A DNA stretch of 64,000 bases, taken from contig NC_087082.1 in the NCBI RefSeq assembly GCF_026151205.1, positions 3,004,001 through 3,068,000 on the forward strand, read 5' to 3'. Source of the DNA: Bolinopsis microptera (Eukaryota > Ctenophora > Tentaculata > Lobata > Bolinopsidae). Shown here piece after piece: positions 30,170 to 64,000 of this stretch. The notes under the pieces were generated by a model that was not told the origin of the DNA, searched no databases, and saw only the letters and a program-made list of their open reading frames with translations. The position numbers and the translations under genes were made by a program. Every line of letters begins with the position of its first letter. Within the stretch, counting starts at the first letter, position 1.

Positions 30170-30240
30170 TGCGTCGGCCGGGAATCGAACCCGGGCCTCC
30201 CGCGTGGCAGGCGAGAATTGTACCACTCAACCACCGACGC
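30170..30240 (-). tRNA. tRNA-Gly (GCC anticodon)
   Basis: The - strand gives a 71-nt cloverleaf. The acceptor stem GCGTCGG pairs with CCGACGC, discriminator A at 30170. D-arm GGTTGAGTGGTAC carries the A box; anticodon loop CTGCCAC with anticodon GCC; T-arm CGGGTTCGATTCCCG is an ideal B box. It reads GGC/GGT glycine codons. There is no intron and no encoded CCA, as expected for a nuclear gene. Confidence 0.97.
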
Positions 30241-43198: not shown

Positions 43199-46100
43199 AT
43201 GGTTAAAGAAAGTAGCACCAAGAAAAAGAAGGCAGAATCTGCTCCTGGAGAAGCTATGGAGACCAACAATGAGGAGGTAGTAGATACCAAGCCAAAAAAG
43301 AGAAAGATTGCCATCCTCTCGGATGATGTTGACTTTGTAAGGGGAAAGAAAGCTACACAACCTGATGCTACCAAACCTCTTAAGACAGAGGCAGACAACA
43401 TATTTGTAAGTTTCTAATAAGTCACAACAGCAGTTATAGTTGCATGGAGAGGCTGCTATCTAAACTATCTATACAAATTGTAAGCCTTTAGCTTTGTTTA
43501 ACAGTCACTTTGTAACGTGAGTTTTTACGTTGAATGGTCTTAATATCAACATCTATTATTTTTTGCTTTCTTTTTTATTGAGTTCCCGATCCTCTTGGTG
43601 GTTCCATTTGCATGACATCTAGTTAGTACTCACCACTCTGTATGTCTTCACTCCTTGTCTGAATGAATCTTGCGATCGAAGACACAGCTGTGGAGGTACT
43701 GAGCCTGATGAGTCTTTTTACTTCCCCCTAACTCTCTGTCTAGGAACTCTGTTGACATTTTTTCGTAAATCAGTGGGTTGATAACAGATAAGCAGAAGAG
43801 CTTAGTCACATCAAAAAACGCCAAGAAATCCTGGTTTGGATATCGATAACTGTACCACATTGTTTTGACACTTAATAAGCAATCAATGAACAGAACCGAA
43901 AAACTGGCTAAGAAAGAAAAAAAGGTCTAGATACGATAAGAATAAGAGTACAGAGTGTTAAAAGATGTAAAAAAGATCTAGGGTCTCTCAATGACATAAA
44001 TAAAAGTTTTCATCTCATAACTCGAATAAGAGTTTAGTAAAATAATAATATAGGAAAAGTTTGTTGTTATTATGGACTGATCCTTTCCATTGATAATTCC
44101 TTCATTCTTCTCAGATAAATTCATAGATTCGCTGTTTAAGCTAGTGTTTGATTTGTAAGTTCTCGAACCTCCTGTTCTCTTGAAGGTTCCAATTGTATGA
44201 CATCTACCATATTGTTCCCACTCTGTACGCCTCCGATCCTTGTTGGAATGAGTTCGGTAACCATGGATACACGTAGTCTGATAATTAATTTCGTTTCCAC
44301 CAACTTTCTTCCGAGGAACTCTGTTAGTTTCCTGTCGTAGATCAGTGGATTTATAACAGAGTTAAGGGGAAGAACTATCATGGCAAAAGAAACGTACCAA
44401 TTAGTCGCATCAATTAAATTCATATTGTGCATACCACTTATTATAATAAAGGGAACCCAACATAGGAAGTCAGTAGCAACTATGATAGCAATTTTGTTCT
44501 GTATAGCCCTGTTTGCCCTTACTCCAGCTTGGTTTTGATCCTGTCCTGACCTCCGTGAAGCTATTCTGGTTTGGATATTGATGAATAAGTAGCAAGAAGT
44601 GATGATGATGATACAGACTAAGTTCATAGCAAGCATCAGCCAAACTGCAAGATCTCCTTTATGATCAGTTATGTTAACTCCACTTTCTACTGATTGTCTG
44701 ATTCTTCTTGCATCGTCACTCCGTACAAAGTACTTGTATAAGCAAACTCCATCGTTGCCGTAGAAATGGACTGGACGTCTACTCAAAAGTTCATATGGCT
44801 CATGCTGAGTGAATATACCGTCCACTTTTTCACTGATTTCTTTCCATGTCAAATCCATGGTGATGTTTGTGGTATTGTAGTAAGCTTGAAGAACCTTAAT
44901 ATGTTTCTCCTTGTTGGGGAAGCCTATGAACAATTTGTAGATGGGATCATAAAACATTCCTTGTACAAAGTATTCCTCCAATGAAGATATCAAAGGTATA
45001 AAAGCTATAGCAAGGGATGCGGTGATGATTCCCGTAGCTAGGAAAGTGAGCTTGACAGCAGAGCTTCTGTTTGCAGGGCCTGGAATACTCTTGAAAGTGA
45101 GCCAGAACATTCGGATGACACTCAAGGCTGTCATAGCAAAAAGGGAGACTTGTGATCCAACTGTGCTGATGACCCCCAATATGGAGCATGTTGTTCCGGT
45201 TAACCATTCGGCTTGATGTCTGCAGAACTCAGTTCCATATATAAAACTATCATAGAAAGACAGAAGAACTAAATATAGTCCGATAACAAGATCCCCTGCT
45301 CCTATTAGACTAATGAAGGCCTTGTTAGCTAAAATAAATTCATTCCTACTATGCTTTATAGTTTTTAGTCCACTGAATACGGTGTACGAGTTTAATATCG
45401 ATGCTAGCACCCCCATAATCCAGGATAATATCTGTAGTGTCAAGTTTTCGAGTATCCTTTTCCCACAAATGACATTGCATTCATCTGAGAGGTCAAAGCA
45501 ATCGTATATGCCGTCACATCTCTGCGATAACGAAATGAACTGATGTTTAGTTGAGTTTAAAGTGTCTTCACAAATCATGTGATTTGCACAGTTCAACTCG
45601 TCACTCATGTCCCCACAGTCATCTTTGAGATCACATACTTTCTTGTATTCCACACATCTACTGTTGTTGCATTGAAAATAGTCCTGGTGATATTGGCCTT
45701 TCTTTGACTTTTCAACAAACGTTAGAAAAGAGTTGTTAGCAAGTGTATAGATTCGGTCAGGATATTGTCCAGGGCATGAATCGTATAACAATGATCTGTT
45801 TTTATTTAGAGGACATGAAGCATCTAGACATAGATCCATGCAACTGAGAAACAGATAATATTCACCAAACAAATAGCTACAATTAACCTTAGAGGTCGGA
45901 ACAATTAACTCAAACTTTGTTATTCCGAATACATCTCCAATCCAGGGTTGTATGAATTCTTTCACTTCACAGTTAGAGTCATCGCATATATCTCGCCTTG
46001 ATCCTTGATATAGAGTTGTATCATTGATAGGTGGGAAATCTCTAGCGATCCTACAAACCTCATTCTCTGCACCGTCACCACACGACTCCAATCCGTCGCA

Positions 46101-49100
46101 AAGTTGTTCTAATTGAACGTATGGTTCATCACCTTTCGGGCACAGATATACGTTCTTGCAAGTTTCATTACTTTGTTTTAAACGATATGCTTTGTCAGTT
46201 TTGTTGCCGCAGAAACGTGAGTCCTCAATTTCAACCTGTTCATCCATTCCATCCATACAATCCACCACTTTGTCCATTATCCAAGTAACTGGTATTCCGA
46301 CCTTCATACTTATTTTAAAGCTAAACCTTCGTAAACATTGAAATTCCTTCGTCATGTATTCACACATGTCATGAAGTTCGTCACTTCCATCAGTACAATC
46401 CCACACTCCGTCACACATCCTGTGTTTGTGTACTCTACAATCAGTGGAAGTAGATGGTGATAAACAGTTGTTTTGAAGGTCATCGTCACATATCTTTACT
46501 GCTGATCCTAAACGCTCATCATAATCATAACACAACACGTACTTAGAAACACTAGAGTTATACCCATTAATATCACAATACCCCCCTACTCGCTCTATAT
46601 CAGAACAGTTAGTTTGATCTGAATAGTTCAAACAGTACGGATATATTCTCTTATAATGATATATACTCGTTATATCAAATGCAGAGCATCTAGTATAGTT
46701 GAATATTGGTACTGTGTTAGTCTTGCTATACCGCACTTTACTGTGGTAATGTGTACAAGAGTGGGGGGTATTTTCAGTAACGTTACAGTCCTGTTCATCC
46801 TCTTCTTCTTTACAGTCCTTGTATCCGTCACATATCCGGTATACAGAAAGAGAATTGTTTTCCGTATACGGGTATAAATACGTACAGTTAATTCCGTATT
46901 TATACCCGTTACAGTCACTTTCATCTATACAATTATGACTATGAGTGTCGTCACATTTATCATCACAGAGCTCTGTTGTTGAGTACTTTCTAGGAGTAGT
47001 AGTAGCATAATAAGCAGTAGTAGCATAATTAGCAGCAGGGTACTCTTGTGGGTCAGGCGTTTTATTGATTTGTGATACAGGGCAATAATTATCTACACTA
47101 CAGTTCTTATCACATTTGATGTACTTCCTGTTGCAAAATAAGCCTCCACACAGCACATCTGTGTTTGTTATTTGTGTATTAAACCCACACGCCTGATACA
47201 CGTGGGGATCGTTCTCACAAACTGCAGTAACGCCCTCGAAATGACCCTTCCAGGTCTGGTTAAAGTACACATCAGAGTGGGTACACTTGAAGTAGTATTT
47301 TTTCTTCTTTTCATCAAAACATGCATTTTTGAGGAAGCCCCCTACCATCGTAACTGTACAATATTTTCTTGATTTTCTCAATTCATCCACAATCCTGTAA
47401 TCAACACTGCCCGGATAAGAACATTCTTTGGTTGTATTACCACACTTTCCACTCATTCCAGTGTGGTCACAACACGGGATGTCCCCATCAGGATCACACT
47501 CAGCAGGACTGCCATCAGGTAGAGGATAGTGAGTACCACATCTCCCGTCAGATCTCCACTTTATCTCGAACTCACCTGATAGAGTGAAGTAACATACCAC
47601 TGAGTGTTGCATGAATAGTTAACAATGCAAATGGTAACATCAATTCATGTATTATTCTGCAATCCGCTGCATTTAATAAAGGCAATAACAATTGTACTCA
47701 TAGAAGCACTAAACATACGAACTTGCACGTTTAAAATTGTGCGCGACTAGATTTGTTAAATTTGTGCACGCCTTAGCTGTGCACAAATGAAAGATTAGGT
47801 ACATTTTACAGATTCAATTTAAAACGTCTTACCTTGACAGAAGATGCCCTGAACTAAGACGATTAGTAGTGCGATCGAAAGTTTAACATCCATTCTTGTT
47901 CCACCTAAGTCGAGATCTTTAGAATTTAGCTAATTCAATCCTTGAATTAAATGTAACGTAAACATTTTATTGGCAATTTCCAAAAACAAAATGGGCTTAG
48001 GAAAAATAAAAGAGCAGAAGAAAATACAGTCACTGTCAGGTTAATTAATAAACATTAAATTGTTACACAATTACATAATTTTATTTCAAAGAAAATTCGC
48101 CGAATGACCTTACATGCTCTGACGAGTTACCGAGTGTAAACAAAATTAGGGACACCGAAACACCAGTTGACCAGTAAACTGGTCATAGCAATTACATCGG
48201 GCCCCATATGCATCTATAAGTGAAGCGATGCTGCAACCAAGGCATGCTAGGTTTATTCCATTGGACCAATAAGGTTACAGCCTAAAATATAAATATAATA
48301 ACAATGTACCATTATAATTATAAACACAATTTATTAAACATATTTTATTAATTACATATTTTATTGTTGATAATCAATCACTAAACGGTCTGGTCATTAT
48401 GAATAATGGACCTCGAATAGTTTATGAGAAGCTGATAATTGTATTGCTAACAATCGTTTAAACAATTGTTTTCAACGAATAAATATGTAATGGCCAATTT
48501 GTTACGTCAACGAGCAAACAGAAGTTACAGGCGAAATTATATCATAAAGCCTATTTACAGCAAAACAAAATAAATACCCGTCCTGGTACGTACTAACTAC
48601 TAACCCTGATCTAAACCAAGGTAACTGTAGCGCCTGGGTATTGTGAGCATCAAATATGTCACGTGAACAGTTTGTAATTGGTCTTAGCACGATACCAAAC
48701 ACCGATTTAATCAAACAACAAATTCAGCTCCTGAACTTAGGCCTCAGAAAGAATCTTAGGCAGATGATTATAAATGGTTCCTGCAGTATAGATGATGATT
48801 ATTTGTGATCATGAAGTAAGAACGACACATAATCTATGAGATGTTAATTTTCGAATGGCAATGATGATTGTCCGAAACATATTGTACTAGAAACCCGCTA
48901 GTCGAAAGCTTTGTTCGAGGAAATTTAAAAAATCATTTATGTTAAATTTCTCATTTATGTTAAATTTCTCTAATCTCTAATCATCTAGCTCTAAGCTCTT
49001 TACTGTAGAAAGTATGGATTTTATTTGACAATGACGACAACTTTGTAAGTATTCGGATTTGTCCCCGTTGTCGGGGGGATTTCGTCAAGTTTAAAATATA

Positions 49101-50938
49101 GTGTAGATAAGGCCAAGGTATTGCCTGTAATCGTTTGAATGACCAGATTGTTACTCAAACGGTGCCCAACAAACAGAAATGAATAGCGAAACCATTTTCA
49201 GCGGGCCTATTTAACAGGTTTTAAAGCAAAATCTATATTAGAGGTAGTTTATGAATCTGTGGAACTAAAATTATTAATGATATGGAATTGATTGTACACA
49301 CTTCAGCTAAATTTTTAATCTCATAGTAAATACGCTCCCTGGTGTGCTATCCCTGATTTAACCATACGTCACTACCATGTTGAATGCCCATGACTATGAG
49401 TATTCTAAGCACAAAATTAAATATTTGTCACGTGAACAAATGGCGGTGTTTGATTGGTCTGAGTAGACTGAGAATTTCGGAGGGAATCTCTTGAAGTTGT
49501 TGGCTCTTGTAATGCGCTTAGTCAATAAAGACACCGTGAGTATCTATTCCTTCCACACAATCCACCTCCTTGTAATTGTCCATTCCCAAGAAACTGGTAA
49601 TCCTTAATTGATAATTCATATTTTGATTTTGAAGTTGGACTAGGAACCGACTGGTTTGGGGTTTTGGCTACTGGACCGAAAACGACCGGATATCAATCTA
49701 TTTTCCTTTTTGCCGGATTTTGCTGGACCGGAGCCGGTTAATATGAAGAGGACATTTAAGGCTGCCGAAAATTGCCGGAAAATTGAAATTATTCCTTGAT
49801 TGTGGGTTTTATCAATTACAATAAGACAGTGCTTACAGTCTGACTAATTGTGTTCATGCCGTATCTAAAATTTAAACTAATTTTCTGCTCCCTGAGCAGC
49901 AGTTACTGGTTGATATGTTTTGCAAGCAATGCAGACTGCAGAGGTCACTGATTGATCTGCTATATGAGCAGAGCGAGAAACGAGTTAGAATAAAATCAAA
50001 ACGCACATTTCAAGGATTCACTGCGTTTTGTGTAGCACTGGCTTAGTGGCGCAGTTCGTTAGTCGACCTGCCTTACTCGTGATATGCTGCTCAATCACGA
50101 GGTTGCGAGTTCAATCCCCGCCTGTGCCACTAGCCATGGGGTGAGCGGCGTTGCCGTTCGCGTTCTGCTAAGGGTTTAAATGAGGAGCTGTACATGATCT
50201 ATACAGCGGAGCCACTGGTGAAGAAAGTGTGGTATAATACCTTAACCGTTGCTGGCCTTAGTTATCGATCCTTCGGGTTCCTGTAAGTGCTGGTGACGGC
50301 CATGGTTGTCCGAAGTAAAAGAAAAAGGGTGGTTTTCATAGATGACCCTGCTGCCTTGCAGCTAAACAACGTAAAGTAAGGTAAGTAAGTAAATGTAATA
50401 AGAATTGCGCCCGTCAGGCCATAGAAGTAAAGCCCAAAATCCGTGACTGTCACAAGTTTGAGGCGTCGACATAGCGGGGGATCATGCCCTTAGTTTTTTA
50501 AAGGCATAATGGCCTTTGTTTACCACAACCCTCCGCTTGCAATGCTTATAACTAATTAATTTTAATTGTCAATTGTAATTAGTCTAGAGTCTAGGTACCT
50601 GCTTTGACTCCTCTCTTTGTGTTACACAAAATCTCACATGAGCGGATCTTTAACATACAAATACCTAGACAAATTCTTTCTTAACATGAAAGGTAAATCA
50701 CAATGCTGGCAAGCATGACCGTGCCTCTTATATTCACAATACTATTTACCCCCTTTACTATTTACCCCCTTTACTGTTTACCCCCTTTATTATTTACCCC
50801 CTTTACTTTTATACCCCCTTTACTATTATATCCCCTTTACTATTATACCCCTTTATTGTTTTTCAGGCATTAAGACTCATCGAAAGTAGTTCAGCAGGTA
50901 TATTTAAGTTCAAAACATTCTAATTCAATGTTAAAGAT

Positions 50939-50978
<40 letters not shown>

Positions 50979-53900
50979 CCAACCCGATGTCCGATATGAG
51001 GGTTGATGAGGCCAAAATCGGAATCGGAAAATCGGAAAAATCGGAAAATTGAGAAATTTACTGAATCAATCTCTAAAAGCTCTCAGAAGTGATATAATTT
51101 AACCAGAACCCCTACATATGCTATGTATGCTATATGAAAACGAACCAATTGGACATTCCAATAGTATGTTTTATGCGTTTTTCCACTGCAGGGGCTAGTA
51201 TGCTCACTACTAGTTGGAGTTGTCATATACTCCCAGACCCGAGTGCTTTGGCCTCTTGACGTGAGATCGATTGTTTCTGCTCATTAATTGTATCCTTGTT
51301 ACTTGTTATTATGTATTAGTACAACACTAGGTACCTGGTTATATTTTGTGGTCCGGTCTTTAAACATACCATAATATCACTAGTACACTGCACCTTAAAT
51401 ATATAGTCAAGTACATTTGTATCGTAACACATGCTTGGCTGGGGGATCATGTTTTGTGTCCGTTCGGTACCCTATATTTTCAAAACGGACAAAAAGTAGG
51501 GCGGACAAAAACGGAAAAAACAGACAAAACATTTAGATGTCCTCCTCCTCCTCCCTAGTCTTCCTCCTCCTTCTCATCAGTCCTCCTCCTCCTCCTCCTA
51601 AGTCTTCCTCCTCCTCCTGAGTTCTTCTCCTCCTGAGTCCTCGATCTTCAGTCCTCTTCCTGACTCCTCGTCCTCGTCCTTCTCCTCAGTCCTCCTCACC
51701 CTCTTCCTCAGTCCCCTCGTCCTCAGTCCTACTCCTAGTCCTCCTCCTTCTCCTTCTCCTCCTCTTCCTCATTTCTCATCCTCCTTCTCCTTCTCCTCCC
51801 CATCAGTCCTCCTGAGTCCTCCTCATAGTCGTCCTCCTCCTCCTGAGTCCTCCTCCTCATCCTCATCCACCTCCTGAGTCCTCCTCCTGAGTCCTCCTCC
51901 TCATCCTCCTCCTCAGTCATCCTCCTCTTCCTCCTCAGTCCTCCCCCAGTCCTCCTCCTCCTTCTCCTCCTCCTCATCCTCCTCCTCCTTCTCCTCTTCA
52001 TCAGTCCTCATCCTCTGTCCTCCTCATAATCGTCCTCGTCCTCATCCTCGTCATTAGTCCTCCTCCTCCTTATCCTCCTCCTCAGTCCTCACCCAGTCCT
52101 CCTCCTCATTCTCCTCCTTCTCCTCCTCCTCATCCTCATCCTCCTCCTCCTTCTCCTCTTTCTTCTCCTCCTAATCAGTCCTCCTCCTCCTCCTCGTCTT
52201 TAGTCCTCGTCCTTCTCAGTCCTCCTCCTCATCATTTTCCTCCTCCTCCTCCTTAGTCTCCTCCTCCTCATCCTCCTCCTCAGTCCTCTTCAGTCCTCCT
52301 CCTCCTTCTCCTACTCCTAAGTCCTCCTCCTTCTCCTCCTCATCAGTCCTCATCCTCAGTCTTCCACTAGTCGTCCTCGTCCTTAGTCCTCCTCCTCTTC
52401 CTCCTCCTGAGTCCTCCTCCTCTGGAGTCGTCCTCCTCCTCCTCATCAGTCCTCCTCCTCTTCTTCAGTCCTCCTCCTCTTCATTCCTCCTCCTCAGTCC
52501 TCCTCCTCAGTCCTCCTCCTCATCCTCCTCCACCTCCTGAGTCCTTCTCCTGAGTCATCATCCTCCTCCTCCTCCTCAATCTCCTCCTTATCCTCCTCCT
52601 CCTCAGTCCTCCTCCTCCTCCTCCTCCCCATTCTTATCCTTATCCTCCTCCTCCTCCTCCTCCTCTTTCTTCTCCTCCTAATCAGTAGTCAGTCCTCTTC
52701 CTTAGCCCTCGTTACCATCCTCCTAGTCCTCGTCCTTAATCATCGTCCTCATCCTCCCCAGTCTTCCTCCTCAGTTCTCCTCCTCCTTCTTTTCCTCATC
52801 AGTCCTCCTCCTCCTCAGCCTCCTCCTCCTCCTCATCCTCCTCCTCAGTCCTCCTCATCTTCCTCATCCTCCTCAGTCCTCTTCCTCAGTCCTCTTCCTC
52901 AGTCCTCTTCCTCAGTCCTCTTCCTCCTCAGTCCTCCTCCTCCTCCTCAGTCCCCAGTCCTCCTCCTACTCGTCAGTCCTCCTACTCATCCTCCTCCTCC
53001 TCCTCATTCCTTCTCCTCCTCATCAGTCCTCCTCCTCCTCCTCCTCAGGCCCTTCTCATCCTCCTCCTTCACCTCTTCCTTCTCCTCCTAATCAGTCATC
53101 CTCCTCAGTCGTCCTCCTCTTCGTCCTTAGTTCTCGTCCTCATCCTCATCGTCCTTAGTCCTCGTCCTCATCCTCCTAGTCCTCGTCCTTAGTCCTCGTC
53201 CTCGTCCTCCTAGTCCTCCTCAGCCTTCCTCCTCAGTCCTCTCCTCCTCCTCAGTCCTCCCCCAGTCCTCCTTCTCCTCCTCCTCATCCTCAGTCCTCCT
53301 CCTCCTCGTTCCTCGTCCTCGCTCTCGTCCTCGTCCTCAGTCCTCCTCGTCCTTAGCCCTCGCGTCCTCTTAGTCATCCTCCTCCCCGTCCTCAGTCCTC
53401 CTCTTCCTCCTCCTCCTCCTCACCAATCCTGCTCCTCTTCCTCAGTCCTCCCTCTCCTCTTCAGTCCTCCTCTTCCTCAGTCCTCCTCCTCCTCCTCAGT
53501 CCCCTCGGTCCTTCTCCTCCTCGTCAGTCCTCCCCAGTCCTCCTCCTCCTCATTCTTCCTCCTTCTTCTCCTCCTCCTCCTCAGTCCTCCTCTTCTTCAG
53601 TCCTCCTCCTCCTCCTCATCAGTTTACACAATTTATTGTTACTAAAATGTTTTTAAATGCATTTGAGTCTGTAACATATTGACATGTTACTGTTACTGAC
53701 TCAAAATGTGCTCGAGAATTTTTTTGTTTAACAGAGTTTTACTCTCCAGTACTACGGAAAAGTTGTTACATGATAAATAAAGATTTTGATAAATAAAGTG
53801 ATTTTCATCCCTTTTAATGTTATTGAAAATAGTGTAGACTATTCTTTGTACCGTGCTACCCATTTCTGCAGATAGCCTGTTACAAATTTTGGAGACAATT

Positions 53901-56900
53901 TAAATCAAAAGTTACAAAGCGTTCGCTATTTGTTACGATTGTTATTACCAACCGTACTTCTTTTAATTGTGGACCGGGGTGGATGTTTCTGTCAAACAAG
54001 AGTTGATACGACAGTGTGTTGTTTTTCGGACGAAACGGTTCTTGTTTGGAACAAGAAACCATTTTGGGGTTCTGGGACCACCACCAATCGATTTCTTGTC
54101 ATATTTAAGTACAGAAATAGCTACCTATATCGCCTAGAAACCTCAGAGGAAAGATTTAAATTTTCCCGATTTTTCCGATATGAGGGTTGATGAGGCCAAA
54201 ATCGGGATCGGAATGATCGGAAATGATCGGGTTGGACCCCCCCCAGATGACAGAAATAAGAAATAGTTATGTGGAGGTTTTTAAGAAATTTGCGCAAAAT
54301 ATGCGCCATCATGTTATACGAAATTCGGTAAAAACCCAAAATCGCCATATTCAGGTGCCTTAAAAACCATGTTAAAATTGAGTTAGAGATCTGGAACTTT
54401 GCAGAGCGTCTAGACGTTGATCAAATCGACTGTATAAAAAAGGTTTCAACTTTCAGGAGTATCTATATCGGGAAATGGGTTTTCTAGAACCCCTGTTTTA
54501 CGACAGATTGTCATTTGTCGTGACATATTATATATATTCATTATTCAGGGATAGACGCTTTGCCAGTCAATTATAGGTTATATTCAGGTGTCCGTAGATT
54601 CAGAAGCTTTAAAGGTACAGCCATATCGGACCACAGGTCTTGAAAATAATTGTTTAGACTTTAGTTTTATATTATATTAAAAAGTAATTCAACGTCATCA
54701 TCACCACTTGATGACGTCATCAAGTTAACCATTTTTATAACTTGATTTTTGACAAAGTAATCACTTTTAAAATTGATTTTACGCCATTAAGAAGTAATTT
54801 TATTCAAAATTTGAGGACATATTGAAGTTAGATAATTGTTTAAGCATTCTGAAAATCTACCGGAAAGTTTTTCTAGCTTGCTCCTTCATAAAGATATTCG
54901 CTATTGAAGTTAGTGCTTTTTTAAAGAATCTAAGAATAATTTTATAAAAACGCTAATTTTACGTTCTAGTATTCTCTGACCGTGTTGAGCTATCCCTTGG
55001 GTTGTGGAGCTTAATTTTGCTTCCTAAAGGTCTAAATTGTGTCATAGGCTAGTTTTAAAGTGGAAAATCGCAAAGTTGCACACGTGGGGACACGCCCAAA
55101 TTGATAGAAAATTGCTAAAGTCACTGAAAATTGCTGTTTTCACCATTTTCTGTCAACTTTGCATTTGGAGTGCCGTTGTGGTTACAGTTCTTCTTGAAAT
55201 ACTTTGAAACTTTGCATGCTTATCAAACTATATATAAAACACTAACATGCAAAAATGCGCACGCAATTGTAATAGATTAAGAAGAACTACCCGAAGGCAG
55301 CTGTACTCGGCAATAAAGATTCAATAAATTTCAGCTAATTCACTAACTACCACCCTTATCGCGAAATACTAGGTATCGACCCGAACGCAACTCAAAGAGA
55401 TTTTGACAGCATGGCATTTGATTGATGTAATTAATCGAAACGTATTACAATTCGTAAGCCGTGAATGAATGGGATAAGCGAGCGACCGATTTCATTCTCG
55501 GTATCATTTTGCATTTGAGAACGGTCAATCAAATTAACATCATTTCCTTTTGTTTGGGAAAGAGAGACACTGGCAGCGGTCCACTCTACCCATGATTATG
55601 GGTTTTGGTCAAATCTAATCTATACATTATAGGCCTTTAAAGAAATCAAGCGGCCAAATTTTGAATCGAGATGATATAGGTATATTAAAGTATATTAAAG
55701 TGTATCCCCGGGTCAAAATCGGAAAAAAACCTACATTTTAATATAATTCAATATACCTACAATTAGTAGATTTATATTCTTCGTTAAGATTTACAAGCTA
55801 AGCCATTTGTTAGTCCCCTGAACTCATACACGAATTTACATCCAGTTTGGACAAAAAATGGCCGTGTTATGAGCCAAAAACTAAATGCCCATATTTGGAA
55901 ACACAAACAAAATGTGATGGCTTTTGGCCCCGAAAATGATTAAATTTCAATATTTTTGTATGAGACTTTAACTTTAGGTCATAGACTAGAATCCCGACAG
56001 TATGACCATGTCACATCTTAACCATGTAATCACCATGTTATAACCATGTTATAACCATGTCATAACCATGTCATAACCATGTCATAACCAAACCCTGACG
56101 TAATCATGACGTAATTATGCCCTGACCCTCCCCCCCCCCCCCCCCCCCTTTTGACTTTTTTCCCTGGCAAACACATTTCTCTACGTTTCATGCTACCCTG
56201 ATCATTATGAGCCGGAATCATTGTTATGATATCCGGCCAAGCATCTTCCCAACTACTTACTTTAGCAGCCGGATACCCGATCCATTCCTACTTTCCTCTA
56301 TTTTATCATTATCAGAGTGAAATTGAGCGGAATTTGAATTAAAATATTGTCAAATTGTTATTATTCTTGAGGGTAAAAAAGAAAATGTTGAGTACGTAAT
56401 CAACAACCAAATCCCCCCGGCCCACCGTTATCATTTGGGAACTAAACTTGGGAACTAAACCCCCTAGCTCCCCCTCCGCTGATTACGTAATATGTGAACG
56501 ACCCCTAAATAAGAAATAACAAAAATAAAATATTAATCGATGCAATTTCGAATTGCACGGAAACTGGCTTACCACTGCACATGTGTAGTCATGTTATGTA
56601 CACTATGTATAATTGGCAAAGAAAAATGACTTGTGATGGCAACAAAATCAAATATATTATGGCCCACTAATACCTATTCTGCTGTTATGAGAGAAATCAC
56701 TGAATCGATTTAATGATCGAATTTAAAAGGCAATTTGAGCAGGTGCTTGTTTAGGGGGCCGCGCTCAGCCTGTCATTCGGCGGTATCCTTATTCGGCGGA
56801 ATCTTTATTATATGTTTATGAACATTATTATATATAGCCTGGGGTCCCCAGTTAAGTGCTTGTAGATTATCATGATCATTAGCTAAAATCCTAGTGATAT

Positions 56901-59900
56901 TTAAATAAAATGACATGATAAAGTTTGTGAATAGGTAGAATACTATTCTAACAATAGCAATTAAATACAGGTGGTTCTGCCAACCACCTCCTTTATAGAA
57001 ACTTAATAGTCAACCCCACGCAGTCGAAATTGAATGGCCTCTAATAAGGATTTCGCAATATCGACCATTACGTCACGCTTTGAACAGGTTCCTGACGATT
57101 TAGTTTTTCTCGAAACCATGTACAGTAAAACCCCAATTTACTATTTTCATTTCACGCAAACTGTACGGTGAATCGGGTCAGGAAACTGATGCGATGGTTA
57201 ACTGATGGTACCAGACACACCAAAATGACACTCGGCTGCAAACACGCCAACATCATCAAAAACCTTAACGCTACACTTAGCAACAACAGACAAAATAATC
57301 AGCAGGACTGCCATCAGGGAGGGGATACCATTCCCCACAATGACGTGGGGCCCACATCTCCCGTTAGAGAACCACTTTATCTCGAACTCACCTGATAGAG
57401 TAAATTAATGTACTACTGAGTATTGCATGAATAGTTAACAATGGTAACATCAATTCATGTATAATTCCGCTGTCCTACATTTAATTAAGACAATAAAATT
57501 GTACGCATTTTAGCACTAAACGAACGAACTTACACGGTTAAATTTGTGCACGCTTTAGCTGTTTTCTTACAAATGATGACATATTAGGTACATTTTATTC
57601 ATTCAATTTCAAACATCTTACCTTGACAGAAGATGCCCTGAACTAAGACGATCAGTAGTGCGATCGAAAGTTTAATATCCATTCTCGTTCCACCTGGTTT
57701 CTTGACCTAATTCAACTCTTGAATTAAGTGTATCATAATATACATTTAATCGGCAATTTCCAAAAACAAAAAGGACTAATGAAAAATAAAAAAGCAGAAG
57801 AAAATACTGCCAGGTAAACAAATTTAATCCCAAAACAGTTGATAATCGATCACTCAACGGTCTGGTCATTACGAATAATGAACGCCGAATAGTTTTTAGA
57901 GGCTGTTGTATTTAAATGTATTAGACAGTGCTTACAATCGTTTAAACGATTAAAAATGGCCCAATTGTTACGCGAACAAGCAAAATGAAAAATGGCGAAA
58001 TGATATCACAAGGCCTATTTACAGTAACAGTTTACTATTATTTTGAAAATACAATAATCATACAAATTCGTTCATGTACTATGGAACTGAGAGGCCCAGT
58101 GACATAAAGTGAGGAATCTAAGAATCTAATTCCTAGCCATATTAATTTCCATAGCCACGCCGACTAATTTTTGTCAACAAAATTATTAAATCAACTTTAA
58201 AATAGTCGCTCTCGGTTGTTACACACTGTAACGCCGCGCACTGTACTTTAATTCTATATTTATCCGAGAAGATGTTCGAATCGAGCGCAAATGCCAGATT
58301 CCTGTCAGGATCCTAGTTCTTGCGCTTAACTTGCGCGTTACCAAATAATCCAAGATATTTCTGTCAGGATCCAAGATTTTCCTACTACCAGTATGGTAGT
58401 ATGGACTGTTTGGTAGTATGGTAGTATGGTAGTTGCAGGAACGCGCGAAGATCTATATGTAAATATTACAAAAGCGTACATGAAATCGTAGCCTAGTTGG
58501 ATAATCCGTCGTTACTACATTAGCAGATCGCGAGTTCGAGACCCGGAAAGGAATTCTTTTACAATCTTTTGGCAATTATGAATAACTATACTAATGAATT
58601 AATAACTATACTAATGAATAACTAAACCTCTGTAATATAACTAGCAAAGTAAAATGAAATCGTTATCCGGCCGCGGAGCGGCCGAAAAATTTATGGTAGT
58701 CGTTTTAAAAATATATGGTAGCCGTTTTTTCTTTCCAGACTGGATTCCTAGTCCCTTTTTAAATTTATGTCACTGGGCTGAGAGGATTGATGGTTTGTTG
58801 TTTTGGGACTGGTTTGTTAGCCAGCCAATGTTTACGAATATAATATATTTATTACATAATGAAATGAAATGAGGTATTTATATCCCGCTCATATGATTAA
58901 CCAACAACACAAGGAAGGTGGTTAACCATGTCAGAGCGGCTGACTGTCAGTGATGTGAGCAAATGTGTAAAAGTGAACTAAAGTATAACTCATCATAAGG
59001 CAAAGACAAAATTAAAAAAATTATGAATATAAAACATAGAAACATAAATAGATTAAATCTTAAATATAATATTCAGCACGTAATTAAAACTGACTGAGGG
59101 CTGGAGCGCACCTCAGTTAAGTTCGTCAACTCAAAAGAAATACCCGTCCTGGTACGCATTAACCCTGATCTAAACCTGGGCAACGTAGCGACTGTGGAGT
59201 GTGGGTATTCTGATTACCAAATATGTCACGTGAACATCTAAACAGTTTGTAATTAGTTTAAGCACGATATTAAACACCGAAATCAACTCCTGAGTATGCC
59301 TCAGATAGACTCTTTGTAATTTTTGGCTCGTCGATATCTGGCTGTTGATTTTCATTCAGCATCGGTGTATTTTTCTTCAAATTTACACATGAGTAGAACC
59401 AATTTGTCCGCGCCAAAATTTACCTGAAACTGGCCGTGGTTTCTGAGTGTGGATATTGATTAAATACAGAATTCTTTAAAAATTGTATTTTCAGAAAGAA
59501 AAAGTAGAGCATATATTCTCGGAAAAATCCATAGCCAAAAAGTCTAAAGATGATTCTATTTCTGATCTGGGAAAACCATTGGAAGATCTTACATACAAGG
59601 TAAACGATAAACACATTTATTGTTAATTATATAATATTACTAGTGTAACCCGGCCTACGGCCGGGATTTCACTGCCGCAGTTAAAAAGGGTAGGAGTAAT
59701 TACCCGCTGAGTCAAAACCCGGATTAGGCGAGCAATTCTATTCGGAGTGCCCTCACGTATCCAATAGTATGCTTAAAAGATAGTAATTCTTAATGAATAA
59801 TCAATAGAAATTAACCCTTAACACCATGCACCACACCAGCCTATCATATTTGTGAACATGCATTACATTGTCGTATGAAAGTATGAACTCTCTCTACAGT

Positions 59901-62900
59901 CCAAACAGACCGTTTGAGCACTCCCTCCCCTAATAAGTTTATAGTATTATATGACCATGTAATATATACGCCATGTAATATATACGCTACATATGCAGAG
60001 AGAGAGCTAGCCCCGTAACTCTTGCCGTTCTTCTCAAGCCATTTTATGTAACATATTTTGTGGTACAAAACCATCAATTAAACCACTTACCACCGGCCGA
60101 TTTTTATAAAATTTGCTTATTGGCTTCGTCAGAGTTTTGTCGGCACTATACCGAAAAAACCAGTCCCGTAACTATTACCGTTTTTTTTGTATAACCGTTC
60201 GGAAATTACACACAGACACACACACAGACACACACACAGACACACACACATTCTGGTGTTATTAAGTTGATAATACACTTGCTATGACCTGACCTTTGTA
60301 TCGTCTCATTGGCACAAATCCAAAATATCACTCTCTAACAACATATTAATGTGGATATTCTGTTTTTAGAAACTGTCCCCTGGTATGCTGATGCTCGGTG
60401 TTGTTTCTGAAGTTGGTGAGGTTGATGTGGTAGTGAACCTGCCCAATGGATTGACTGGCTTTATCAGAGGTAATGTGAATATGCATTTCTATGTTAAATT
60501 GTATGTGTGGCACCAAATAAGCTTTGAATTAGATCTAGCTAAGATAAAATATTTTGATAACAAATTAAGTGCAATGTTAAATGCATACCGAATGAAAAAT
60601 GAAATGAAGAAACTAGATGTAGAAGTAATTTATATCAATATTGAATTCTTGTGTTGAGCCATATCTAATTATTATCATAATATGCTAGGTACTGATATCA
60701 GCGAGGAATTTAACAGTGTTATCGAGAACAACGCTGAAGGTGACGAGGAAGCAGAAGGTGAAGAGGTTAGTTTCCTCTGTTGTAGATTTGAAGAAGAGAA
60801 ATGTACTTACAGAACGGTGGGCGTGAGAGTTCACCACACTGTTCTATACTCAAACTCAGAGATTCGATACTAAATTAATCATAACAATTTCCTAAACAGC
60901 CTTCTTTTGAACATCAATTTATAATGTAAGCCACCTATAACATAGTATCTCTATTCTTTAAGCTCCTGTAAGTTCCACTTAATTTCAGGAACTAGACCTC
61001 TGTGACGTTGTATCAGTGGGACAGTTCTTATCCTGCTCGGTTGTTGATGTAGTTACTGTTGACAAGACACGCAAACTCAACCTCACCACCAAACCGGAGA
61101 TAGTGAACGTTTCTGTCAAGCAACAGGATATCAACAAGAATATGGTAGGTGATTTCATTCGATTTAAAGGACTAGTGACCACCTTACCTTCTTCATAAGA
61201 ATATATTTTTTAGTATGAAATGTTTCAATGTTGCTTTATTAGCCGGAACCTTATTTCCGGTAGGTTTTCATCTTTAAAATACTTTAAATTATTGTGCCAC
61301 TATTTTAAACAAAAATACAGTTTTAGGATTATCTGATAGTTGAAGTTGTAACATTAAAAACAGGTGCTACAAGGAGTCATCCAGAGTGTTGAAGAGTACG
61401 GGTACATGGTGAACGTGGGAGTCAAGGGAGTAACAGCCTTCCTCAACAAGAGTGCTGCAGTGCTCCTGAAGAAGTGTGATATTGTCCGGGTGGTGGTCAA
61501 TACGGTTAACGATGGCAACCTTATTTTAGGTGAGGTGTGTTATAAATTGTGCAGCCCGGGATTATTAAATTGTTTTTATTTCTCTCTCCAGAGTTTGAGA
61601 TTGAATAATACAATAATAAGTTTGACTCATATCTATAATCTCTGAAATTTCTGTGCAATTCTAAGAAGAATTACGTGAGTTATTAAAGGGTCGCGTATGG
61701 GCAGTTACTTCTGGGCCACTCTGTATAATTGGGTAGCTCTGGCAGTGTAGTCAGGGTCATACATTTATAATTAAAATATTTTAATTTTAGCAGGGAGATA
61801 AATTATTAATCATCTCTTATTAACTGTCTAATTAACACAGTCTAATTAACACAGGACTGTACGCGGTAGGGATGAAAGCACTTTCGGAGAAAACAGTAAC
61901 AACGTTCTCTTCTCTGACGCCAGGTCACCTTGTTAATATCACCGTTAAGAAACAGGCTGCTAACGGACTGAGATGTACCTTCCTTGGGGGTATCCTGGTA
62001 GGTACTCTTCCACTTAGGGACTGTTTTGCTGGGGGTGATGCAACGTCAATTAATGTCAGTATTCCATAAAAACCCCAAACTGACATTGACATTAATTGAC
62101 ATTAATTGACATTAATTGACATTAATTGACATTAATTGACATTAATTGACATTAATTGACATTATTCGATAAATATTCAAGATATTCACGTCTATGTAAG
62201 TTAGATCGGTTCAAAAAAACAAAATGTCCTTAAATAATTATGAGTATGTTCTTATCTGTTGATCCTTAGGTTCAAAGACCACCAAAAAAATTTCAGCTTC
62301 CAACTCTTCCATCTTCGGTCCCCACCGGCCACGCCCATATTTTATTGGTTTCTTATACAGGTAAAATATCTAGAATCGGCTTTTTTTAGTATGAAGGAGT
62401 AATGTTAGCTGTTTAAAATTCGTTATTCAAAAATAAATGTCATGAAGGCATTTCGTTTAATGTGGGTTTTAAGTTCTGATGATGTTGAGAACCACGCCCT
62501 TGGATGGCCAAGCCCATTTAAGAAAATTAAATTTCGGGAAACCGTATTATTTTAGTTTTATTGTTTAATGATCTGAATTTTTTCACATTTCACATTTCCA
62601 TATGTGATAGTAGTGAATAAATTGATGATATAAACGTTCTAAAGTGCTAAAAATATGGTAGAACTACATAATCTCTGGTCGAAAAATATCATGTCAATTA
62701 ATGTCAGTATTCCAAAATTTTGCAAAACTGACATTGACATTAATTGACATTAATTGACATTAATTGACATTAATTGACATTAATTGACATTAATTGACGT
62801 TGCATTCCCCCCGTTTTGCTAGAGTAGGAACCGACCGGTCTAAGGTTTTGGCTGCCGGACCAGAAAAGACCGGATATTCCGGTTTGTCGCATTTTTCCGG

Positions 62901-64000
62901 GCCGGAACCGGGTAATAAGAAGAAGATATTTAAGGCTGCCGGAAAATTGAGATTAATCCTTGATTGTGGGTTTTATCAATTATAATATTAAAAGCCATGT
63001 GGACACAATGAGAAAGTGCTTACAGTCCGACTAACTGTGTTCACGCCCTATTTCAAATTTCAACCAAACTTCTGCGCTGTGAGCAGCAGTCACTTGTTGA
63101 TATGTTGTGCGAGCAGTGCAGAGGTCACTGATTGATCTGCTGTATGAGCAGAGCTAGAAACGAGTTGGAATAAAATCAAAACATTGCAAGAATTCACTGC
63201 GCCTTGCCTAGCACAAATGTACAAATTGCTTCAGTAGTAAAGCCCAAGATCCAGCAGCCAGTGCAGCTCTTATAAGTTCGTGGCGTCAATATAACCGAGG
63301 ATAATGTCCAAAGTTTTTAATGGCATGATGGCCTTTGTTTTAATCCTTGACATGTAAGGGGAGTTAGCAACGGGTTTGTTTACCACAATAAAGCAGGGAC
63401 CCTCTGGGCTCTGCTTGAAATGCTCATAAGTAAAGCATAAATGGTAGCTGTTTTGACTCTAACCCACTCAAAAATCTCACATCAACGGGTCTTGAACATT
63501 CGCTGACAGATAACAGGCGACCGTGGAGGCGTGGAATTTACCGGTCACTGAGAGCAATGGACTGGATGCCCCTTAGTAAGAATTTTGACAGAAATATTAT
63601 ACATTTTAGGAACACTTAAAAAAGAAATGTCCTGTTGAATATCCGGCCAAATTTTTGGAAACCGGACCGAAACCGGAACCGGAACCGGAGATTAAAGCCG
63701 AATATCCGGCTGGAACCGGATTCAGCCGGATATCCGGTCAGTTCCTATGCTAGAGGAGCTTTATTTCTACTATGGTCCATGGAGATATTTCTTCTTCTGG
63801 CTATTAAATATATTTACTTGTTTACTTAAAAACTTACTATGTGTTATTTTATCGCGATGTTTCTTTTATTCACAACTAAATAATCCCCGTTTGACCCTGA
63901 ATATCCCTAACAGGGCTCCGTACACCTAATACATCTGAAGGACATGTACAACAGTAAGAGTGTACTGGAGGTGTACCCTGCTAAACGCAAGTTAGCCGCC
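43199..64000 (+). CDS. PDCD11: RRP5/PDCD11 rRNA-processing protein, N-terminal part (runs off the window)
   Basis: Nucleolar S1-repeat protein needed for pre-rRNA cleavages leading to 18S and 5.8S rRNA. Exons: 43199-43405, 59495-59599, 60370-60469, 60689-60765, 60989-61144, 61364-61529, 61855-61997, 63914-64000 (continuing). All junctions agree in phase; 347 codons so far. Exon 1 is a Lys-rich basic region (KPKKRKIAIL, nuclear-localisation-like) with DFVRGKK where relatives have FPRGG. Exon 3 onward gives the first S1 fold (KLSPGMLMLGVVSEVGEVDV, LPNGLTGFIRG), a second (VLQGVIQSVEEYGYMVNVGV, GVTAFLNK) and a third starting LTPGHLVNITVKK and ending GSVHLIHLKDM. These repeat signatures identify the family; full members approach 1,900 residues. 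Intron 1 is 16 kb and contains an opposite-strand receptor gene. I saw no extra exon inside it. Confidence 0.87.
43585..43862 (-). pseudogene. 3'-end pseudogene copy of the neighbouring LDLa-GPCR
   Basis: The - strand reads SVINPLIYEKMSTEFLDREL, matching SVINPLIYDRKLTEFLGRKL of the intact gene (TM7 NPxxY and helix 8). Further on, after frame changes, LDVMQMEPPRGS matches VDVIQLEPSREQ near its C-terminus. Preceding helices are missing. It lies about 275 bp beyond the intact gene's stop codon, on the same strand. Confidence 0.82.
44136..47893 (-). CDS. LDL-receptor class A domain-bearing rhodopsin-type GPCR
   Basis: Cell-surface receptor, ligand unknown. Exon 1 (47893-47833) encodes a 20-residue signal peptide (MDVKLSIALLIVLVQGIFCQ); exon 2 (47575-44136), joined in phase 1, carries the rest: 1166 aa. 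The ectodomain (about 21-720) is rich in Cys and N-glycosylation sites and has several LDLa modules: RMCDGVWDCTDGSDE, EQLCDGLESCGDGAENE, KKVCDLKDDCGDMSDELNC, SQRCDGIYDCFDLSDEC. From about 733 there are seven helices; TM6 has FLCWVPF and TM7 NPLIY at about 1096-1100. The DRY site reads VIRM. Extracellular loop 2 is about 110 residues, very long. LDLa plus rhodopsin-type 7TM recalls GRL101 and relaxin (RXFP) receptors, but I see no leucine-rich repeats. The gene lies within RRP5 intron 1, antisense to it. Confidence 0.9.
47894..48800 (-). promoter_or_regulatory. Upstream region of the GPCR gene, duplicated at 57680-59325
   Basis: The 5' flank up to about 48760 recurs beyond the pseudogene copy at 57682-58025 and 59125-59325, for example CGGTCTGGTCATTA and TACCCGTCCTGGTACG, so promoter and first exon were copied together. 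A TCACGTGAAC block (about 48660) is kept in both copies. Promoter function is inferred from position only. Confidence 0.45.
49641..50735 (+). mobile_element. hAT-like element related to 62825-63747, interrupted by a SINE
   Basis: Begins TAGGAACCGACTGG, the terminal repeat of the complete element at 62825. Homology continues (TTAAGGCTGCCG, CCTTGATTGTGGGTTTTATC, AGAGGTCACTGATTGATCTG) to about 50035, pauses across 50036-50424, resumes at TAAAGCCCAA and fades near 50735. The right terminus is lost. Confidence 0.78.
50036..50424 (+). mobile_element. tRNA-derived SINE inserted in the hAT-like element
   Basis: The head has a tRNA-like fold: GTGGCGCAGTTCGTTAG (A-box-like) and GGTTGCGAGTTCAATCCCC (B box), with GTGGCGC/GTGCCAC acceptor pairing. 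It is followed by a non-tRNA body ending in a GTAAGTAAGTAAATG tail. Its edges coincide with the gap in the surrounding element. No function as a tRNA is expected. Confidence 0.72.
50745..50862 (+). repeat. 16-bp tandem repeat (TTACTATTTACCCCCT)n
   Basis: About seven imperfect units of TTACTATT(T/A)(A/T)CCCCCT, with Ts in place of C and TTTA/TATA changes toward the right end. Confidence 0.85.
50941..54244. mobile_element. 3.3-kb element with G-tract terminal inverted repeats
   Basis: The left end is 37 G then TCCAACCCGAT; the right end is ATCGGGTTGGA then eight C: terminal inverted repeats of about 19 bp with an expanded G tract on the left. AGATGA is repeated directly outside both ends (50935-50940, 54245-54250). 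Just inside, the same orientation of a 36-bp motif starting CCGATATGAGGGTTGATGAG occurs at both ends (about 50991 and 54177). The interior is mostly the (TCC)n-like array; no transposase-like ORF seen. The combination suggests a non-autonomous DNA transposon of unassigned superfamily. Confidence 0.65.
51538..53620. repeat. 2.1-kb imperfect (TCC)n / CAGTCCTCCTCCTC array
   Basis: Almost pure C/T on the + strand, built of TCC with recurrent AGTCCTCCTCCTC and TCCTCGTCC sub-units of variable length. The - strand is AGG-rich, so open frames read as Arg/Glu runs and are not genes. Such purine:pyrimidine tracts can form triplex DNA in vitro. Confidence 0.95.
54251..57298. other. Intronic DNA with minor repeats
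   Basis: No gene supported. Holds an 11-bp tandem repeat ATAACCATGTC (56020-56095), a C run at 56128-56148, and one pogo-like terminus TACAGTAAAACCCCAATTTA at about 57120 without a clear partner. Confidence 0.45.
57299..59325 (-). pseudogene. 5'-end pseudogene copy of the LDLa-GPCR with its promoter region
   Basis: 57299-58025 and 59125-59325 align with 47501-48560 and 48570-48760. The signal-peptide exon (57681-57621, MDIKLSIALLIVLVQG) and its donor are intact, and the next exon starts GEFEIKW after a good acceptor. An insertion then shifts the frame before PLPDGSPAD, and similarity ends at 57299. The block from 58026 to about 59134 is an insertion absent from the parent. Confidence 0.83.
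58026..59134. mobile_element. About 1.1-kb insertion with a tRNA-like segment
   Basis: Interrupts the duplicated GPCR promoter. 58487-58550 has TAGCCTAGTTGGATAATC (A-box-like) and GCGAGTTCGAGACCC (B-box), as in tRNA-derived SINEs. TATGGTAGTATGGTAG repeats lie at 58385-58438. Exact ends and target duplication were not resolved, so it may be more than one insertion. Confidence 0.5.
59639..60252. mobile_element. Candidate retroelement in RRP5 intron 2 ending in (ACACACAG)n
   Basis: Starts near a CCCGGCC-TAC-GGCCGGG hairpin (59648-59664) and ends in a repeat of ACACACAGAC units at 60208-60251. A hairpin head and microsatellite tail suggest a short retroelement, but no coding sequence or target duplication was found. 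Confidence 0.35.
62031..62812. mobile_element. hAT-like element with decamer arrays at both ends
   Basis: Termini GGGGGTGATGCAACGTCAAT (left) and the inverse of GGGGGGAATGCAACGTCAAT (right) form terminal inverted repeats of about 28 bp with two changes. Exact 8-bp duplications GTTTTGCT flank it at 62023-62030 and 62813-62820. Inside each end is an ATTAATTGAC array, about eight units on the left and six on the right. 782 bp, no transposase. Lies in the RRP5 intron after exon 7. Confidence 0.92.
62825..63747. mobile_element. Complete 923-bp hAT-like element
   Basis: Terminal repeats TAGGAACCGACCGG and CCGGTCAGTTCCTA (one mismatch). Exact 8-bp duplications TGCTAGAG at 62817-62824 and 63748-63755. 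CCGGA-rich subterminal repeats (GGAACCGGAACCGGA, GATATCCGG) cluster at both ends. No transposase. An older, SINE-interrupted relative is at 49641. Confidence 0.93.

Follow-up and report, generated by a model that had tools for sequence, protein, structure and literature searches.

An intact antisense receptor gene and partial copies of its two ends in the first intron of a ctenophore RRP5 gene

A 64,000-nucleotide stretch of the genome of the ctenophore Bolinopsis microptera (NCBI RefSeq assembly GCF_026151205.1, contig NC_087082.1, positions 3,004,001 to 3,068,000 of the forward strand; hereafter the window, with coordinates counted from its first letter) carries a complete gene for a G-protein-coupled receptor (GPCR) with LDLa domains, which lies antisense within the first intron of an RRP5 gene and has a partial copy of one of its own ends on either side. 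The piece on the 3′ side copies the seventh transmembrane helix (TM7) and the cytoplasmic tail, and the piece beyond the 5′ side copies the promoter, the signal-peptide exon and the start of exon 2; the former is about 2.3–2.4 times as diverged from the receptor as the latter (28% versus 14%). We consider it probable that the receptor is a nested gene, that each flanking piece stems from its own duplication of the receptor, the two differing in age and each partial or truncated later, and that the locus is an unremarkable case of birth-and-death evolution of a receptor gene.

A receptor gene nested in RRP5

Seven RRP5 exons on the plus strand join in frame and six of the seven end at a GT donor; the seventh is cut without a donor, so its boundary is not placed, and the last traced exon is that at 62059. 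The joined protein matches Rrp5 in the Protein Data Bank (PDB; E = 1e-18, best stretch query residues 80–237) as well as the Pfam family S1_RRP5, and this homology confirms the identity of the gene from exon 2 onwards. Exon 2 (59495–59599, plus strand) is bounded by AG and GT, lies within the PDB Rrp5 alignment of the assembled exons and contains residue 80, where that alignment starts. Exon 1 (43199–43405, plus strand; 69 codons, phase 0) falls outside the alignment, so homology does not confirm it; it has an open frame and a GTAAGT donor, and joins exon 2 in frame. A first-exon scan of 43.3–59.49 kb for plus-strand open reading frames of 60–399 nucleotides ending at GT[AG]AG[TAG] returned five candidates, four of them variants of the 43199–43405 exon (two start codons; donors at 43336 and 43405) and the fifth, 46121–46216, antisense within the receptor coding sequence. 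Judged by frame and donor, 43199–43405 is the best first-exon candidate in the interval. Consistent with the preliminary description of this DNA, which had placed an intact LDLa-GPCR inside RRP5 intron 1, these two exons bracket an intron of 16,089 bp (43406–59494, plus strand) that hosts both fragments and the whole receptor, antisense at 47893–44136; the first host exon is the one set by frame and donor.

The receptor gene consists of two minus-strand exons that encode 1,166 uninterrupted amino acids and end at TAA. Exon 1 (47833–47893, 61 nucleotides) encodes the predicted signal peptide and is separated by a 257-bp GT–AG intron (47576–47832) from exon 2 (44136–47575), which encodes a hevein-like domain, LDLa domains, an LGR-like seven-transmembrane (7TM) region, the tail and the stop. 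Pfam recognizes LDLa in three stretches (E ≤ 0.1) together with 7tm_1 (8e-12), and the 7TM region carries the motifs FLCWVP and NPLIY. Among the best 60 of 118 PDB matches, the strongest overall are LDLa stretches of LRP2, and the closest 7TM structures are those of TSHR (1e-13), LHCGR (2e-12) and RXFP1 (5e-11). By homology the receptor is class A and LGR-like in its 7TM region. It has the LGR-type 7TM region and the multiple LDLa domains of LGR and GRL101-type receptors and lacks a recognizable leucine-rich repeat (LRR) ectodomain; because Pfam returned no LRR family at E ≤ 0.1, we do not file it as an LGR. The signal peptide would direct secretion, a disulfide-rich ectodomain of hevein-like and LDLa domains would be displayed, and signalling would proceed through a 7TM region most like those of TSHR, LHCGR and RXFP1. 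A search for relatives in viral contigs gave three pattern matches, none of which was confirmed.

The N-terminal part of the ectodomain, receptor residues 26–81 (47394–47561), matches the hevein-like domain of amphioxus BbtPGRP3 (PDB 4zxm; E = 5.3e-9), the sole strong PDB match of this segment, for which no Pfam family was found at E ≤ 10. Double mutation of two BbtPGRP3 tryptophans, Trp53 and Trp55, abolishes chitin binding (PMC4610682). Homology to a solved domain is present in the receptor, and the chitin-contacting tryptophans are not: when we assign the paper's numbers to the two tryptophans of the 4zxm alignment, the receptor has T and K at these positions. The hevein-like fold may persist, and chitin binding through that site is not expected, because T and K replace both needed tryptophans and a three-residue insertion separates the two positions.

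Partial copies of the two receptor ends

Copies were sought by a repeat scan, self-BLAST of the window, shuffle tests and tblastn of the receptor (E ≤ 1). Over the whole 64 kb, tblastn returned seven stretches, of which two are the receptor's own exons, two lie in the 3′ piece and three in the 5′ piece. Receptor and pieces are all on the same strand. That the pieces are copies of this receptor, as first proposed, is upheld by self-comparison, which recovers both of them and extends the match into noncoding and tail sequence.

The 5′ piece falls into two minus-strand blocks. A proximal block (57299–58027) comprises part of the promoter, a copy of exon 1 (57682–57622), the donor, the intron, the acceptor and the first 76 bp of exon 2 (from 57391), and a distal upstream block (59127–59314) matches 48561–48757. 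Self-BLAST pairs 47500–48027 with 57299–57807 (E = 1e-119), 48366–48563 with 57838–58027 (E = 1e-25) and 48566–48714 with 59132–59286 (E = 5e-23), and none of 200 shuffles reached the observed score for either block (Z = 59 proximal, Z = 30 distal). BLAST and shuffles thereby agree with the earlier account of 57299–59325 as a copy of the promoter, signal exon and exon 2 start, with the correction that the copy is split by a 1.1-kb insert (58028–59126) that shows no similarity to the receptor gene (its score is equalled or exceeded in 77 of 100 shuffles). Counted over aligned sites with gaps excluded, the copy differs from the receptor at 22/171 sites in the distal, 26/177 in the middle and 18/122 in the proximal flank and at 30/223 in the intron; these four noncoding parts together give 96 differences in 693 sites (an 86% match) and 22 indel events. 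The start of exon 2 differs at 9 of 76 sites, with no evident constraint, and exon 1 at 2 of 61; splice donor and acceptor are intact. Because the noncoding promoter and intron match the receptor gene, the 5′ piece is by its alignment more than a generic GPCR resemblance. About 310 bp upstream of the intact receptor (48028–48365) are without counterpart in the copy (48027/57807 to 48366/57838), either because sequence was inserted close to the intact promoter or because the copy has lost it.

Taken as a candidate pseudogene fragment, the 5′ copy breaks off 76 bp into exon 2, where it terminates abruptly at 57299 in a 20-bp identical run. No receptor similarity was detected at the DNA level in 56300–57298 (91 of 100 shuffles reach the score) or by tblastn at E ≤ 1 in the rest of the spacer, 8.5 kb without a detected remnant; one tblastn stretch of the 5′ piece overruns the aligned end by 19 bp, to 57280 (E = 0.017). 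Because the end is abrupt and nothing similar lies beyond it, the copy would owe its end either to a clean deletion or to a duplication that was incomplete from the outset, and gradual erosion is not supported for this copy. Continuation of the piece in the other direction, toward RRP5 exon 2, was rejected (59331–59490 against 48750–49600, 63 of 500 shuffles).

The 3′ piece (43557–43824, minus strand) differs from receptor TM7 and tail at 71 of 252 sites with 10 gap events. Self-BLAST pairs 43592–43802 with 44177–44376 (E = 2e-10, 68% identity over 214 columns), none of 200 shuffles reached the observed score (Z = 25), and the match continues into the receptor tail past NPxxY. Four 2-bp gaps in TM7 leave a net frame shift, and an exchange of TM7 by alternative splicing into the piece was rejected on this ground; tblastn places an in-frame stop in the tail. 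Differences per codon position are 19/84, 27/82 and 25/86; because the three positions differ alike, with no third-position excess, coding constraint is invisible. With a disabled frame and no such constraint this is a pseudogene fragment, and it looks dead. The preliminary description had called both copies decayed, which holds for the 3′ piece with its broken frame but not uniformly for the 5′ piece, in which the coding exon and the splice sites have hardly changed.

BLAST and shuffles likewise support the TM7-and-tail copy first noted on this side, with the amendment that it may reach transmembrane helix 5 (TM5) and the third intracellular loop (ICL3). A possible extension at 43828–43913 (minus strand) matches receptor 44563–44652 in the right order and is separated from the TM7 block by 3 bp; against 44400–45000 its score was reached in 2 of 500 shuffles and by none of 287 background tiles on each strand. 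Against it, 43825–44135 compared with the whole gene gives no signal (69 of 200 shuffles), and the 90-bp query, trimmed after the hit was known, scores 118 in the gene where a chance-level rival elsewhere in the gene scores 114. We regard the extension as suggestive only; if real, the 3′ piece would be what is left of a longer, truncated copy from which a deletion of about 160 bp removed TM6.

From the receptor stop to RRP5 exon 1 the receptor strand has a single AATAAA or ATTAAA motif, an AATAAA at 43574–43579 within the 3′ fragment. By a rough estimate about one such motif is expected by chance per 0.7 kb at this composition, and weaker poly(A) variants are also present (AATGAA at 44106, AGTAAA at 43722 and others), so the lone motif is not significant by itself. 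The fossil may nevertheless lie in the 3′ untranslated region (UTR) of the receptor and end its transcript.

Age, origin and possible use of the copies

The difference in divergence between the pieces carries the case for more than one event. Third codon positions of the 3′ piece differ at 25 of 86 sites and noncoding sites of the 5′ piece at 96 of 693 (Fisher p = 0.0007), and Jukes–Cantor distances are 0.37 (third positions) or 0.35 (all sites) for the former and 0.15 for the latter. Because the pieces differ about 2.3-fold, a single erosion event is insufficient, and the alignments point to two or more duplications that took place at different times, the 3′ one being the older, unless mutation rates vary along the locus. 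The older would have left TM7, the tail and perhaps TM5, and the younger the promoter, exon 1, the intron and the opening 76 bp of exon 2. The view of the locus as eroded tandem receptor copies accordingly survives in so far as partial same-strand copies exist and the 3′ one is dead, and falls where it implies one erosion. Several points weigh against our reading of two remnants. The comparison spans the 64-kb window, and either piece could really derive from a copy elsewhere in the genome; the donor of the 5′ piece might possibly be another receptor with the same promoter and signal exon; and a difference in mutation rate between the two ends could mimic one of age. Moreover, the change in exon 1 is too low for two unconstrained copies (Fisher p = 0.019), a shortfall that constraint on the intact gene only would cover (P = 0.20).

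A narrower form of this explanation, to which we give somewhat less than even weight, holds that the 5′ piece was partial from the start and that the 3′ piece arose separately by a short local duplication, with a complete second receptor never present. The abrupt end of the 5′ copy, the failure of tblastn and shuffles to detect further receptor sequence in the intron, and the position of the TM7 copy only 576 bp from receptor TM7 all fit such an origin. The TM5/ICL3 match, if real, would instead imply a longer 3′ piece with TM6 deleted, although the controls weaken that match. A recognizable simple 576-bp tandem repeat would also need a match of the receptor 3′ UTR past the copy, and there is none (484 of 500 shuffles reach the score), so the 3′ piece as such a repeat, readable through the 3′ UTR, was rejected. 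We think it improbable that the pieces merely reflect a generic likeness to a large receptor family or to a signal-peptide and hevein-like family. A signal exon and a hevein-like start could be common to many genes of such a family, but against this stand an upstream flank and intron matched at 86% over 693 noncoding sites, and the match of the 3′ piece in the tail beyond NPxxY.

The near-identity of the copied first exon raises a further alternative, in which the 5′ piece still functions as an additional promoter and first exon for this receptor. Transcription would start at about 58–59 kb, and exon 57682–57622 would be joined by splicing to exon 2 of the intact gene at 47575, yielding a near-identical protein under a second control. 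Exon 1 of the copy keeps its donor and phase and has only its 2 changes in 61 sites, of which one replaces V by I and the other is synonymous, compared with 48 in 345 in the adjoining flank and intron, the contrast behind the Fisher value given above; a copied first exon is also in use in Arabis alpina PEP1 (PMC3527215). The fair null, however, would be constraint on the intact gene alone, with one lineage changing: at half the neutral divergence about four changes are expected, and two or fewer in 61 have a probability of 0.20, so low change was rejected as proof of use. In addition, the upstream blocks of the copy are kept no better (12.9–14.8%) than its intron (13.5%), and its own exon 2 acceptor (57391) would compete, giving a truncated product of 84 amino acids. 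We therefore regard a working second promoter as unlikely, and hold two probable remnants of separate duplications to be the better account of the pieces. In a bolder version the intact gene has recruited both fossils: the 5′ copy would supply a second promoter and signal exon to the shared exon 2 about 10 kb downstream, and the 3′ copy would serve as the 3′ UTR with its poly(A) site. Remnants of the receptor's own duplicates would then set both ends of its transcript, antisense inside a ribosome-biogenesis gene, but we think this very improbable.

The host intron, the wider window and known systems

The same preliminary description had suggested that intron 1 reached 16 kb by repeated duplication. 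Receptor-derived DNA, tallied as the receptor gene, its upstream region to 48757 and both pieces including the possible TM5 piece, makes up 5,907 of the 16,089 bp (37%), and a CT-rich array at about 51.5–53.6 kb another 13%. Because this share is only 37% and the rest includes the array and dispersed repeats, growth mainly by duplication is unsupported; repeated receptor duplication explains at most a part of it. The array (51539–53620) is a 2-kb degenerate TCC repeat (C 1038, T 735, A 169, G 139). A dispersed repeat at 49638–50038 recurs, 75% identical, at 62822–63214, past the last traced RRP5 exon, and self-BLAST finds a second matching stretch of the same pair (50423–50521 and 63233–63340). 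The least diverged self-BLAST match in the intron is a 50-bp direct repeat (50990–51038 and 54174–54223; 94% identical, 3.2 kb apart). Rfam gave eight matches in 48.7–59.5 kb up to E = 5, all under gathering scores and taken as chance.

The window has a G+C content of 38.7%. Two perfect arrays of the 10-mer ATTGACATTA lie at 62085–62164 (8.0 copies) and 62733–62798 (6.6 copies). An uninterrupted 867-amino-acid frame on the minus strand (36258–38861) has a reverse-transcriptase match (E = 5e-6) just under the Pfam cut-off (26.7 versus 29.6 bits) and is likely to be a retrotransposon. A tRNA-Gly (GCC) at 30170–30240, minus strand, is the sole Rfam match over gathering score in the window, and a minisatellite at 8284–8871 (22-bp unit, 26.8 copies, 96% matches) is open in minus-strand frames.

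Partial gene duplicates are ordinary, and this locus is tidy but ordinary, mostly gene-duplication debris with one testable surprise, the copied first exon. Its value lies in showing the birth and death of receptor copies compactly and legibly within a single housekeeping-gene intron, with two remnants of unlike divergence. Searches confined to one literature collection showed neither an earlier description of an RRP5–receptor host–guest pair (judged by title among the papers listed) or of a nested GPCR with tandem duplication, nor a paper combining a GPCR, LDLa and a chitin-binding domain.

Nested genes as such accumulated during metazoan evolution (PMC8467205), and intronic genes are estimated to make up about 6% of Drosophila genes (PMC3786989). 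Drosophila 2mit in tim2 is likewise a gene within the intron of another in opposite orientation (PMC3786989); unlike that pair, the receptor, known from sequence alone, shares its host intron with its own partial copies. In architecture it resembles the GRL101-type or Type C LGRs of cnidarians and placozoans, which have an LGR-like 7TM region and whose cnidarian members are reported to have multiple LDLa domains (PMC4079206), and it differs from them in having an N-terminal hevein-like domain and no LRR by Pfam. This mix of hevein-like, LDLa and LGR-like 7TM domains, with no LRR found, is of some interest in itself. BbtPGRP3 (PDB 4zxm and 4z8i; PMC4610682) has a chitin-binding, hevein-like domain similar to receptor residues 26–81, but there it is fused to an amidase and not to a GPCR, and both of its tryptophans are absent from the receptor. 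For the copied first exon, the closest working precedent that we found is the PEP1 locus of Arabis alpina, where a duplicated segment of about 2 kb contains exon 1 and parts of the promoter and intron 1, the exon copies are 6.3 kb apart and two first exons are spliced onto the same exon 2 (PMC3527215). Both loci have a partial tandem copy of this size and content several kilobases upstream of a contiguous gene; the receptor copy, unlike that of PEP1, also holds an acceptor and 76 bp of exon 2, and PEP1 exon 1a is shown to be in use (PMC3527215) whereas the receptor exon 1 copy is a genomic observation. Were the copied receptor exon in use, the locus would parallel Arabis PEP1 in an animal, with a partial duplication turned into a second promoter instead of dying.

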